A stretch of 26,407 nucleotides of DNA from a virus. The notes under the pieces were generated by a model, which was given only the letters and a program-made list of their open reading frames with translations, ran no database searches and was not told the origin of the DNA. Shown here piece by piece: positions 946 to 4,906 of this stretch. A program made the position numbers and the translations under genes. How positions within the stretch are numbered: the stretch's first letter is position 1; each line of letters opens with the position of its first letter. Location of the stretch: the IMG/VR virus record IMGVR_UViG_3300020197_000137, positions 1 through 26,407 of that record. One strand, given 5' to 3'.

Positions 946-1380
946 TTATTCCTCATCAACCTTTTTCTTCTTACCAATGTTATATTTCGTTTCAAGTAAC
1001 CACTCGTTCTTCTCTTTAAAAGCAAGAACTTTGATTTGATTCAGAGGAGCAAGATCTGAGATCTTATCCACATCAGGAACTTTTACAAGCCCCCAATCTG
1101 CAACCAGTTGAATAATACGGTTGCGTCTCTGAACATCATTTACAGTCAGATTTGCATACTTACCATCAAGGGCAAATAGTTCCTTGAAGTGAACAATATA
1201 ATATCTACCTTGTTTATGCAGAATATGGCAAGACTGGTATAGTTTCTTTTCTTTTCGAGATGCAACACCAATTCTGGTTAAGGTTTCACGAACCTTCAGA
1301 AAGTCATCTGGTTCATTCAGAATCACTTCCACCATTTTATCAGGTGCCCACTTTACTTCAGGTTCAATAACAACGCTCAT
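946..1380 (-). CDS. regA: RegA translational repressor
   Basis: A 144-aa homologue of T4 RegA, the RNA-binding protein that blocks ribosome binding on many early phage mRNAs, including those of gp44 and gp45. The diagnostic core is visible at residues 30-80: a VRETLTRIGVASRKEKKLYQ stretch, then SCHILHKQGRYYIVHFKELFA and the GKYANLTVND segment. It is longer than T4 RegA (122 aa); the extra residues are a charged C-terminal tail ending GKKKKVDEE. Its ATG overlaps the gp62 stop as ATGA, the usual sign of translational coupling, and gene order gp44-gp62-regA matches T4 apart from the inserted gene. The operon ends in a terminator just downstream. Confidence 0.95.
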   Translation of the reverse strand: MSVVIEPEVKWAPDKMVEVILNEPDDFLKVRETLTRIGVASRKEKKLYQSCHILHKQGRYYIVHFKELFALDGKYANLTVNDVQRRNRIIQLVADWGLVKVPDVDKISDLAPLNQIKVLAFKEKNEWLLETKYNIGKKKKVDEE

Positions 1381-1754
1381 TTTTTTCCTCCAACATCAAG
1401 TTTTTGTTTAATGTAATCTAGTTGTTCTTTATTTAGAATTCTCAAAGCTTGTTGAGCTTTTTCTATACTATAACCATAGTAAGATTTGACTGCATCAAGA
1501 TCTTGAATTTTATCTTTTTTAAGCCAAGGAGAAAATCTTTTCCTTTTCCTCAGACTATTTATAAAAAAGTCATATTGCAAACGGTTCGGTAAGAATGAAT
1601 ACTTATTCATCTCATTTGCATACATGATCGTATCTAAAAAACCAGAAAGACATCGGTTAATAATATAAGGAGGATACTCCTTCTCATTAGAATCTTCCAT
1701 AATATATTCTTTTGTGTGGTTAACAGAGTTCAACCAATCTTTCAATTCAGTCAT
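1377..1754 (-). CDS. 62: Clamp loader small subunit gp62
   Basis: A 125-aa protein in the gp62 position between the clamp-loader region and regA. T4 gp62 (187 aa) forms a complex with four gp44 subunits and helps load the gp45 clamp on primer-template junctions. Cyanophage versions are shorter than T4's, and this one fits. Visible features are an N-terminal ELKDWLNSVNHTKEYI helix, a YPPYIINRCLSGF segment, and a basic LRKRKRFSPWLKKDK patch that may contact DNA or partner subunits. The ATG overlaps the previous stop as ATGA, and its own stop overlaps the regA ATG the same way. The assignment rests on weak sequence resemblance plus very strong gene order. Confidence 0.85.
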   Translation of the reverse strand: MTELKDWLNSVNHTKEYIMEDSNEKEYPPYIINRCLSGFLDTIMYANEMNKYSFLPNRLQYDFFINSLRKRKRFSPWLKKDKIQDLDAVKSYYGYSIEKAQQALRILNKEQLDYIKQKLDVGGKK

Positions 1755-2887
1755 CGGATAATATCAATCTCCATATCTTTACTCCAAACTTCAAGTTCGG
1801 TTCTCAATCTACCCTCAGACTTCAATGTTTCATAACGAGTAGAAGCTTTGTTCTTCCACCAGTTGATTAGATTCTCGGCATGAAACTTATCATAATTCTG
1901 AGGATTCTTAATCAGAACATCAGTCTCTCCATTAATAACTTCTCTTGCATTGAGAAATCCATAGTCAGACATGTAGAACCTCTTCTTCTGAGTCAAATCC
2001 TTTGCAGATTGAATTGAAGAGTTGAAACTGGAAAGTTTCTCTATTAACTGTGGATATTCCTTCAAAGATGCACGGATGATTGAAATCATTTTCTGTTGTG
2101 TCTTAAGTTTACGACTCGAAGCATCTTCTTTGACAAGAAGTTTATCTCCATTCCGAAACTTGAACCACTTGTTTAAATCTCCAAACACAGAATCATGCAT
2201 CAGAGGAGTAAAGTCACTCTCTGTCAAACCACGATATCTCATATAGGGTTTCAAACCATCATACTGAGATGATGACTTTGTGGAACCATAAAGAGAAGTA
2301 GTCTCAAACAGACAAATATTTGCATCATACTTTGCATTGAGTTGTTCTCTTGCTTCATGAGAACAACAAAGAAGTGCAAGGAGTTTACCTCCCAGATAGT
2401 TGAACCCAAAAGGTTGAGTGGGAACAATAATGAATCCCATGATTGCATGTCGATTGAATCGAGTTAGATCTGGAACTGATCCAAGCCAATCATTTCTAGG
2501 TTTAGAATTGATTGTAGGAGAACCAAATCGGATGAAACCAACAATCTTCTTACTGTTAGTTTCCATGACAATCCACTTCAATGATTTGCCAGGAATACTA
2601 TTCTCAATCGCATGAGAAGTCGTTACCTGCAATCTTTCATTGAAGAACTCATTTGTAAATCCACCCTTCTCACCTGCACAATAGATTTTGAAATCCATCT
2701 CATTCGGATGCATGTCAAAATCACAGAACATATCATCCTCTGGGCCCATTCCCAGAAGAGATGTCTGCATCTCTTTCATTCTATCTAATTTTACATTACG
2801 CAAATACTCATCGATCCTTCCCAGATTGGAGAAGTAATCGATGAATTTATCTGCAGCATATATTGCATCTGGCGTATCTAATATCAT
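1751..2887 (-). CDS. DruA/DUF4338-like protein inserted between gp44 and gp62
   Basis: A 378-aa protein between the two clamp-loader subunit genes, where T4 has nothing. Its centre (about residues 100-225) follows the pattern of DUF4338, the domain of DruA from the Druantia anti-phage system. The signs are a GKSLKWIVMETNSKKIVGF strand pair, a PRNDWLG element, an R-x-x-x-N-R-x-A segment, FIIVPTQPFGFNYLGGKLL, then KYDANICLFETTSLYGSTK with the conserved E-T, and a YMRYRGLTE end. The C-terminal 150 residues are charged and helical, ending in W-W and W-S-K segments. Both ends overlap neighbours as ATGA, so it is translationally coupled with gp44 and gp62. Function is unknown. The DUF4338 relation is read by eye, not searched; counter-defence, host takeover or DNA processing at the fork are all inferences. 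Confidence 0.7.
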   Translation of the reverse strand: MILDTPDAIYAADKFIDYFSNLGRIDEYLRNVKLDRMKEMQTSLLGMGPEDDMFCDFDMHPNEMDFKIYCAGEKGGFTNEFFNERLQVTTSHAIENSIPGKSLKWIVMETNSKKIVGFIRFGSPTINSKPRNDWLGSVPDLTRFNRHAIMGFIIVPTQPFGFNYLGGKLLALLCCSHEAREQLNAKYDANICLFETTSLYGSTKSSSQYDGLKPYMRYRGLTESDFTPLMHDSVFGDLNKWFKFRNGDKLLVKEDASSRKLKTQQKMISIIRASLKEYPQLIEKLSSFNSSIQSAKDLTQKKRFYMSDYGFLNAREVINGETDVLIKNPQNYDKFHAENLINWWKNKASTRYETLKSEGRLRTELEVWSKDMEIDIIR

Positions 2888-3828
2888 TTGATCTCACACT
2901 CCATCATGAGTTCAGTCAATGCTGCTAAAAGGTTAATCTCCTGATCAGCCACGAACGCAATTTGGTATTGATACTTAGCAATAATAAGAACGGCAGCGGG
3001 AATAGAGCTGGGTGAAAGCCAATCATAAGAGGCGTCATAAATCCGACGCAGAATGATACCAGGATCGTTATCCAGGTTGGCGACTATCCACTTGCGAACT
3101 TCCGTGAAGTTTTTATCCTTGAGACATTTAATGAGATCATTTATTGCAACGTCCGAGAAAGATGTAAGAATTCCTGTGTCAATTTCTCCCCCCACTGAAT
3201 ACCTTTGACATTCATTGAGAACACGTCTCCAATCAGGGAAATGTTTGTTAATGATTTCGATGAGAACTTTCTGATCGTATTTGACACCCTCTTTCTGCAA
3301 AATGTCTTGAAGTCTTGTATAAAAACTTGCAGCAAGTTTAGCCTTTTCTTTTCCTTTGATGGAGAAGTCAATGACGGCACATCTGGAGTGCAAAGGTTCG
3401 ATGATCTTGTTCTTGTAGTTGCAGGTAAAGATGAATCGACAGTTGTTATAAAACGTCTCAATATTAGCCCGTAAGAGGAGTTGAACGTCGTTGGTTGTAT
3501 TATCTGCCTCATCAATGATGATGACTTTGTGTTTACCAAGGCCTTGAAGTGACACGGTAGACGCAAAGTTTTTTGCTTGGTTCCGTACCGTGTCCAGAAA
3601 TCGTCCTTCGTCAGATCCGTTAATGACATAATAATCAGCACCTATCTCTTCACATAATGCTTTTGCAACAGTAGTCTTACCAATACCAGGAGGCCCAGAA
3701 AGAAGAAGATTTGGGAGATTACCATTCTCCACAAACTCCCTCAAATTCTTTTTGATCTGTTCAGGAAGAATGCAATCCTCGATTGCATGAGGCCTATATT
3801 TTTCAACCCAAAGGAAGTCATCACGCAT
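2884..3828 (-). CDS. 44: Clamp loader large subunit gp44 (AAA+ ATPase)
   Basis: A 314-aa AAA+ ATPase, the catalytic subunit that opens the gp45 sliding clamp and places it on DNA. From the chosen start it shows the clamp-loader N-terminus FLWVEKYRP, Walker A GPPGIGKT (45-52), Walker B VIIIDEADN (102-110), sensor-1-like FIFTCNYKNKI, and the SRC arginine-finger motif LHSRC (146-150). Length matches T4 gp44 (319 aa). The frame continues four codons upstream to a TTG, but ATG 3828 puts WVEKYRP where the family has it and lies two bases after the stop of the upstream gene, so I chose it. The stop overlaps the next ATG as ATGA. Confidence 0.95.
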   Translation of the reverse strand: MRDDFLWVEKYRPHAIEDCILPEQIKKNLREFVENGNLPNLLLSGPPGIGKTTVAKALCEEIGADYYVINGSDEGRFLDTVRNQAKNFASTVSLQGLGKHKVIIIDEADNTTNDVQLLLRANIETFYNNCRFIFTCNYKNKIIEPLHSRCAVIDFSIKGKEKAKLAASFYTRLQDILQKEGVKYDQKVLIEIINKHFPDWRRVLNECQRYSVGGEIDTGILTSFSDVAINDLIKCLKDKNFTEVRKWIVANLDNDPGIILRRIYDASYDWLSPSSIPAAVLIIAKYQYQIAFVADQEINLLAALTELMMECEIK

Positions 3829-3830
3829 AA

Positions 3831-4241
3831 TCAAAAACAATACTTTTTCATAAAACGATTTACCATATGAGGTTTATCCTCTAGGTAATAAGCTTCAGTC
3901 TCATAAACAACTGGAGATCCTGTAATCTTAGATGATCTAAGAACATCTAACAATTTATCAGTAGGTAAAATTGCATCTCGAATACTAATTGGCCCACCAA
4001 TACAAGAGTGAATTACATGAACTGCTTCATGATAAACAGTCTCATTCACATAGTAACTGACAGGGCTCACAGTATTCTTGATGTTGTCTGTACAAATCAC
4101 AAGATTTGGAGCTTTGGTATATCCAAAGAGTTCCTTTTGTTTTTTACAAATCGGTGCATTTTCTTGCACCTGATAATTTTTCATCAAAATTCCCGTTAGG
4201 ATTTCACGCCCAATAGGAGTCAAATAAAGAAGAAAGTCCAT
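3831..4241 (-). CDS. Small HExxH putative zinc metallopeptidase
   Basis: A 136-aa protein between gp45 and gp44. It contains a zinc-protease helix, VNETVYHEAVHVIHSC (HExxH at about residues 71-75), followed some 35 residues later by YETEAYYLEDK, which offers glutamates for a third zinc ligand as in gluzincins. N-terminal residues include LTPIGREILTG and a KKQKELFGY segment. I know no T4 counterpart at this place. ATG 4241 overlaps the gp45 stop as TGATG, so the start is clear and the gene is coupled to gp45. A soluble intracellular protease or a metal-binding inactive relative both fit; there is no signal peptide or membrane segment. The motif is seen directly; the activity is inferred. Confidence 0.75.
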   Translation of the reverse strand: MDFLLYLTPIGREILTGILMKNYQVQENAPICKKQKELFGYTKAPNLVICTDNIKNTVSPVSYYVNETVYHEAVHVIHSCIGGPISIRDAILPTDKLLDVLRSSKITGSPVVYETEAYYLEDKPHMVNRFMKKYCF

Positions 4242-4906
4242 CAACTAAAAGTAGAATCAGGTTCAAGAGCGATGTGATAAGTCACACCCATCTGAGTATT
4301 CACAAATCGAGAGATGTTAGATTTAGAAATCACAACATCATACTTACCAGGAAGAATCTTGATATTTTCAACCTTAAAGTTCATTACAAAATTGTCACTG
4401 GTTTCACCCACTTCAATTGAATATTCGTTAGAAGTTTCATTCTTACGATCACGAACCACAAGAGAAATCTTCTGCCCATTACCGATTGCACAGAGATCAG
4501 GAACCTGATAAACCGCTGCAGCTTTCAGAAGTTGATTCAGTTGATCAGAGTCAAGTTGAAAACAGATATCTTCACTCGGAAGAGTCAGTTCTTTCTCTGG
4601 AGGGCTAATGATCACGTTTGGATCAGAGTAGTAGTATTTGGTTTTACGAGAACCTTCTTTGATGACTGCATAAGAGTCTGCAGTAAAATCCAACTCAGCA
4701 TTATGATGCAGAGACAAACCATTCAAGAACTGGTTAAGATCATAAATACCAAATTCTTTCGGAAGTTCTTCATCAATCTTAGCAGATGCAAGAATATTCT
4801 TCATCACTGAAATGGTGCGAAGTTTGTTACCAGTCTTGAATAGAAGAGACTGGTTAATCGAAGAGAAGTTCTTCAGAATCGAGATTGTTTTTTCAGAAAG
4901 TTTCAT
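4241..4906 (-). CDS. 45: Sliding clamp gp45 (DNA polymerase processivity factor)
   Basis: A 221-aa homologue of T4 gp45 (228 aa), the trimeric ring that tethers the phage DNA polymerase and, with gp55, activates late transcription. Recognisable parts are the N-terminal MKLSEKTISILKNFSSINQS, the FKTGNKLRTIS strand, the KYYYSDPNVI segment near residue 90, and the C-terminal VVISKSNISRFV and YHIALEPDSTF. The frame is open for 11 more codons upstream, but ATG 4906 is preceded by AGGGA at proper spacing and gives the family N-terminus. The start lies inside the end of the upstream gene (14-base overlap), and the stop overlaps the next ATG by one base. Confidence 0.95.
   Translation of the reverse strand: MKLSEKTISILKNFSSINQSLLFKTGNKLRTISVMKNILASAKIDEELPKEFGIYDLNQFLNGLSLHHNAELDFTADSYAVIKEGSRKTKYYYSDPNVIISPPEKELTLPSEDICFQLDSDQLNQLLKAAAVYQVPDLCAIGNGQKISLVVRDRKNETSNEYSIEVGETSDNFVMNFKVENIKILPGKYDVVISKSNISRFVNTQMGVTYHIALEPDSTFS

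Follow-up and report, generated by a model that had tools for sequence, protein, structure and literature searches.

A DruA-like protein with a predicted GNAT fold alternates with a DNA-adenine methyltransferase between the clamp-loader genes of T4-like cyanophages

The window analyzed here is an entire 26.4-kb virus record, a fragment of a T4-like cyanophage whose gp44 is 98% identical to that of Synechococcus phage DSL-LC02. The genes of interest lie on the minus strand in the order gp45, a 137-amino-acid (aa) open reading frame (ORF), gp44, a 378-aa ORF, gp62, regA, and hsp20 (Table 1); the listed TTG start of gp44 may be too early. A sequence-only reading of this DNA had described the 378-aa ORF as spliced between the two clamp-loader subunits and joined to each by ATGA, and both observations hold, the borders being identified by phrog_168 on one side and phrog_225 and Phage_clamp_A on the other. 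The gp62-regA junction is also an ATGA overlap, and therefore the coupling is a general style of this operon and nothing peculiar to the druA-like gene, which is itself just one kind of cargo in a slot of variable content; among phages carrying a druA-like gene in the slot, it touches both borders directly at a minority of loci (19 of 178). The 137-aa ORF between gp45 and gp44 (3831-4244, minus strand) contains a HEAVH stretch, matches phrog_16003, in which function is unassigned, and weakly resembles peptidase M76 (E 0.09).

Table 1. Features of the clamp-loader region and of the DruA-like protein, in window coordinates
Feature	Position	Strand	Basis
DruA/DUF4338-like protein, predicted GNAT fold, 378 aa, ATG start	1751..2887	-	PF14236, phrog_19197, AlphaFold model
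Core of DruA/GNAT domain, residues about 97-221	2225..2599	-	PF14236 match 2294-2599, extended to conserved GxT at 220-222
Candidate acyl-CoA loop PTQPFGFNYLGGKLL, residues 156-170	2378..2422	-	Alignment and model; putative function
Second hallmark motif TTSLYGSTKSSSQYD, residues 196-210	2258..2302	-	Invariant residues
gp44, clamp loader large subunit, upstream slot border	2884..3840	-	phrog_168 E 7e-134; Gp44_lid
gp62, clamp loader small subunit, downstream slot border	1377..1754	-	PF16790 (Phage_clamp_A) 1e-10, phrog_225 9e-48
regA, translational repressor	946..1380	-	PF01818 4e-43; ATGA overlap with gp62
ATGA overlap, gp44 stop / druA start	2884..2887	-	Sequence; TCAT on plus strand
ATGA overlap, druA stop / gp62 start	1751..1754	-	Sequence; TCAT on plus strand

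The resemblance of the 378-aa protein to DUF4338/DruA, originally noticed by eye, is now statistical. The Pfam DruA profile PF14236 matches residues 97-198 with an E value of 5e-12 and 46 bits, above the gathering score of 27, while covering only positions 78-180 of its 297; the PADLOC DruA profile matches at E 2e-6, and the NCBIfam profiles gave no match to the protein. In a non-circular hhalign comparison, the phage family aligns with a Meiothermus protein annotated as DruA at E 2e-9 over 186 columns, with shuffled controls at E 0.2-0.5 (an earlier run against bacterial DruA, E 1e-68, was discarded because related sequences were common to both sides). The motifs of the family, defined by eye from bacterial members (an R[DN]x[WY][IL] hairpin, LGGKL, and TxSxxG..SxY), are all present. 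The full-length match is to phrog_19197 (E 5e-192), a PHROG entry of the same family catalogued as of unknown function. Homologues occur in 31 records of the phage collection, nearly all of them Synechococcus or Pelagibacter myoviruses, and the PF14236 cut-off is exceeded in 13 of 14 phage records with homologues; in IMG/VR, five different queries confirmed 246, 121, 114, 145, and at least 594 stretches, in overlapping sets. A DruA likeness is already on record for six Synechococcus phages, S-PRM1 among them, in a paper of January 2026, where the structural likeness between the S-PRM1 protein and DruA has a TM of 0.73 (PMC12774648, the Phold paper); the S-PRM1 homologue is 64% identical to the window protein.

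Several observations on the wider family are recorded here in their own right. HTVC008M-type pelagiphages have two different DruA-family proteins each, as seen in L003 (KC465899, 86386-86916 and 99793-100128) and in the IMG/VR records of loci L255, L257, L268, and L273. A 586-aa ParB_N-DruA fusion is found in a marine single-cell genome (L494:1154-2911), which fits a DNA-bound role. In CP070751.1 (L488), the 5.16-Mb "chromosome" of Thermoplasmata archaeon bin33, the series druA-gp62-regA-hsp20-gp43 stands directly after a run of N and is most likely a phage scaffolded into the chromosome of an archaeal metagenome-assembled genome.

The name of the family raises the question of whether the protein is a stand-alone relic of a Druantia defense system, serving superinfection exclusion or counter-defense as had been proposed. 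Like DruA of Druantia type I, the phage protein matches PF14236 above the cut-off and has the LGGKL and TxSxxG..SxY motifs, and the Phold paper places such proteins among defense-like phage proteins (PMC12774648). The phage family differs from Druantia type I in having N- and C-terminal parts of its own, a replication-operon setting, and no Dru neighbors: among the 20 other proteins of the 26-kb fragment, there was no PADLOC match to the DruE helicase or any other Dru protein. The helicase and SMC matches in the window belong to the phage itself, which encodes a UvsW-like helicase and gp46-like proteins. In the literature that we searched, we found no activity for DruA, so the name carries no mechanism. 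A defense or superinfection-exclusion role thus finds no support beyond family membership, and we regard the relic as very improbable.

What the protein might do is better approached through its predicted structure. An AlphaFold2 model built from 45 sequences has a mean pLDDT of 90.9, with long helical additions at the N and C termini, and the lists that Foldseek and VIA-align return for it consist almost exclusively of GNAT acyltransferases. Based on this model, the 378-aa protein is predicted to be of the GNAT fold; so is a relative at 25% identity, taken from a metagenome-assembled genome and modeled with a pLDDT of 82.6. For the window model, VIA-align ranks Mom of phage Mu first (8bv8; Z 9.5, 3.7 A, 166 aligned), tied with many other GNATs within 1 Z, including spermidine acetyltransferases and protein acetyltransferases such as RimI and Naa60. 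For the relative, Mom again comes first (Z 9.8, 173 aligned, against 9.1 for the next), which counts as a tie. Mom is a DNA-adenine-modifying enzyme, and GNAT enzymes act on many different substrates. Among the first named viral structure matches, a Mom protein stands at rank 8. The best viral structure matches also include uncharacterized proteins of the giant viruses Faunusvirus, Yasminevirus, and Dasosvirus (BFVD A0A3G4ZXG3, A0A5K0UAJ3, and A0A3G4ZRA1), with E values down to 3e-16, and giant viruses may therefore carry DruA-like proteins. DUF4338 has been described as a GNAT domain in print (PMC10853773).

Two conserved segments stand out in this fold. In PTQPFGFNYLGGKLL, residues P156, Q158, P159, G161, N163, G166, G167, K168, and L169 are invariant in the 45 aligned relatives; the QPFGFNYLGGK part of this candidate acyl-CoA loop sits where the GNAT pattern [QR]xxGx[GA] would be expected, after strand 148-156 and before helix 166-174, but its spacing differs from that pattern. 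In TTSLYGSTKSSSQYD, T196, T197, S198, L199, Y200, G201, S207, Y209, and D210 are invariant, and the motif is found in bacterial DruA proteins as well. It is here that the protein departs from Mu Mom (PF25680, PDB 8bv8). The two are alike in GNAT fold, in being phage borne, and in having DNA as the target, proposed in our case, and Mom ranks at the top for two models; however, SFAD...YQASNF of Mom is replaced by TTSLYG...YDGLK, and there is no significant sequence match. The Mom profile PF25680 gave no match to the 378-aa protein at E<=1, hhalign of the phage family against the Mom alignment gave E 0.2, and no pairing tried reached significance; therefore, we do not claim Mom membership. Direct sequence searches of the PDB gave no match, whether started from the protein or from the 45-row profile. 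One GenBank record names a homologue "methylcarbamoylase mom." A DUF4338 protein encoded on a Thiodictyon plasmid (L622:1817-2692), with an integrase and an IS91-family transposase as neighbors, scores 167 bits to PF14236 and has a weak Pfam Mom match (E 0.008); its Mom-like motif TFVETPRFRGTCYRAANW has in common with Mu Mom the pattern [TS]F[VA][DE]..G..YxAxN[WF]xxxG, and judging by these sequence features the protein may be a bridge between the DruA and Mom families.

Further evidence comes from a survey of gp44-gp62 gaps, in which slots hold dam or druA and none holds both. Six phages lacking druA (S-RIM14, S-RIM8, MED4-213, S-SSM5, S-WAM1, and S-WAM2) have a DNA methyltransferase before gp62, in all six cases of the D12 N6-adenine type. 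This cyanophage Dam-type enzyme (PF02086, T4-GC161) takes the same place directly before gp62 and alternates with druA, but it belongs to an unrelated protein family, that of SAM-dependent methyltransferases. In the phage collection, homologues of cyanophage Dam occur in 421 records, related gp44 in 512, and druA homologues in the 31 mentioned above. For a sample chosen for neither occupant, we took IMG/VR loci by gp44 similarity alone; among the 64 with both borders, 40 held dam, 14 druA, 10 neither, and none both, against 8.75 expected with both (P 4e-8 assuming independent rows, which they are not). Across all slots, druA is present in 190-191, dam in 46, and the pair in none, nor do they occur together in any of the 503 fetched loci. 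Both lie mostly directly before gp62, at median distances of 6 and -7 nt for the two occupants. At locus L155, the dam gene after gp44 is split into two pieces that lie in different frames. A gp44 tree of 129 rows, a quick build with many open forks, requires at least 24 changes among the three slot states, and the starred branches alone force 5 changes for druA and 4 for dam. Other cargo accompanies the occupant in 156 of 191 druA slots and 33 of 46 dam slots, comprising small ORFs, an oxygenase, denV, an HNH gene, and many unrelated families, some of them found with both occupants. Since other genes sit beside either occupant and slots reach 2.5 to 4.5 kb, the exclusion is not due to lack of room. 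In the open-access papers searched for cyanophages in connection with Druantia, or for dam within or close to their clamp-loader genes, we found no account of this alternation; the DruA likeness and the assignment of DUF4338 to the GNATs are already in print.

The alternation largely extends to whole records. A D12 methyltransferase is encoded in 1 of 14 phage records with druA versus 8 of 8 without, and one above the cut-off in 0 of 19 IMG/VR records with druA versus 5 of 5 without; jointly, with HTVC008M, which is in both sets, counted once, the figures are 1 of 32 and 13 of 13, where 11 of the 13 records without druA had been picked for dam seen in the slot and several IMG/VR records are fragments. 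The two records that were not picked for dam, ACG-2014f and S-CAM7, have D12 enzymes elsewhere than in the slot. The one exception is S-SCSM2R, with druA plus a D12 methyltransferase at 48 kb, outside the slot. druA itself is not confined to the slot: it lies between gp43 and uvsX in HTVC008M-type pelagiphages, near gp46/47 in S-B68, and at another place in Mosig, and none of the eight records of this kind (these three and five from IMG/VR, some of them fragments) has a D12 enzyme.

In total, these observations are consistent with a model, to which we give about even odds (roughly 0.5), in which the protein is a GNAT acyltransferase of the DruA/DUF4338 family, Mom-like, that takes Dam's place in modifying phage DNA. 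The DruA-like protein would be produced alongside the clamp loader while DNA is being replicated, and would move an acyl-type group from a CoA donor, the use of which we infer from the fold, to a base in newly made phage DNA. The base is plausibly adenine, at N6. If the alternation reflects a common substrate, the DruA-like protein would fill the job that the D12 N6-adenine methyltransferase performs in most other T4-like cyanophages, and the either-or slot suggests that DNA is chemically marked by DruA-like proteins too. If modification brings protection, the marked DNA would probably be shielded from host nucleases or restriction. Thus, of the three roles proposed by the sequence-only reading, DNA processing fits best, here as base modification, on the basis of the GNAT fold, the first rank of Mu Mom, and the way in which the gene and a DNA-adenine methyltransferase replace each other in the slot and, for the most part, across whole records; the defense and superinfection roles are not supported beyond family membership.

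Palindrome counts in 100-kb samples of isolates bear on the last step of this model. The 4-bp palindromes are less avoided in druA isolates than in dam isolates (mean log2 O/E -0.56 versus -1.33, p 0.0007), most strongly at GGCC and CCGG (for GGCC, -0.23 versus -2.52), which would fit protection but is a hint only, the comparison controlled for ancestry having just 3 usable pairs. In the same isolates, 6-bp palindromes showed no difference between druA and dam phages, and GATC counts did not separate them (p 0.76).

The main rival is allelic cassette exchange, in which recombination in the conserved gp44 and gp62 flanks swaps the contents of the slot, and dam and druA are functionally unrelated. 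By itself, such exchange can produce the alternation, and it sits well with the repeated swaps of occupant between near relatives on the gp44 tree (L158 with dam and L161 with druA; L100 with druA and L115 with dam), with slot cargo drawn from many unrelated families, and with the D12 methyltransferase that S-SCSM2R retains elsewhere. Against it, D12 is likewise missing from the records that have druA at another position (0 of 8), and other cargo families are found with both occupants, each in few lineages. Taken together, the missing D12 with off-slot druA and the coexisting cargo point to an alternative that is functional and not purely positional; we consider exchange alone the less probable account, though one to be reckoned with. 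Is it possible, then, that the GNAT fold is turned on protein and not on DNA? Phage Rac, for example, acts on the alpha subunit of RNA polymerase (PMC7552054). The acylated partner could be a host or phage protein or a co-translated replisome subunit, as the structural tie with RimI, Naa60, and similar enzymes, the coupling to clamp-loader genes, and the long helical terminal additions would all allow. However, this leaves the exclusion of Dam unexplained, and the clamp-loader link is not kept in the pelagiphages, with the gene at gp43-uvsX, or in S-B68, with the gene near gp46/47. We therefore think a protein target unlikely.

That a DruA-like GNAT protein and a DNA-adenine methyltransferase have repeatedly been swapped in one slot points directly to DNA modification, and the slot pattern spans many marine and freshwater cyanobacterial viruses. 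The either-or slot makes the job of DruA testable, given that cultured phages of each allele share Synechococcus hosts (on WH8102, S-8S53 and Sf-CH8 versus S-SSM5). If modification of phage DNA by the DruA-like protein is true, abundant marine viruses have an unrecognized kind of modified DNA. To generalize further, we speculate, quite tentatively and leaning against it, that all DruA-family proteins, Druantia DruA included, form a second large class of Mom-like DNA-acylating enzymes. If the family is indeed Mom-like, then cyanophages would routinely put a DruA-like protein in the role of Dam, and in Druantia type I a DNA-marking subunit would accompany the helicase.
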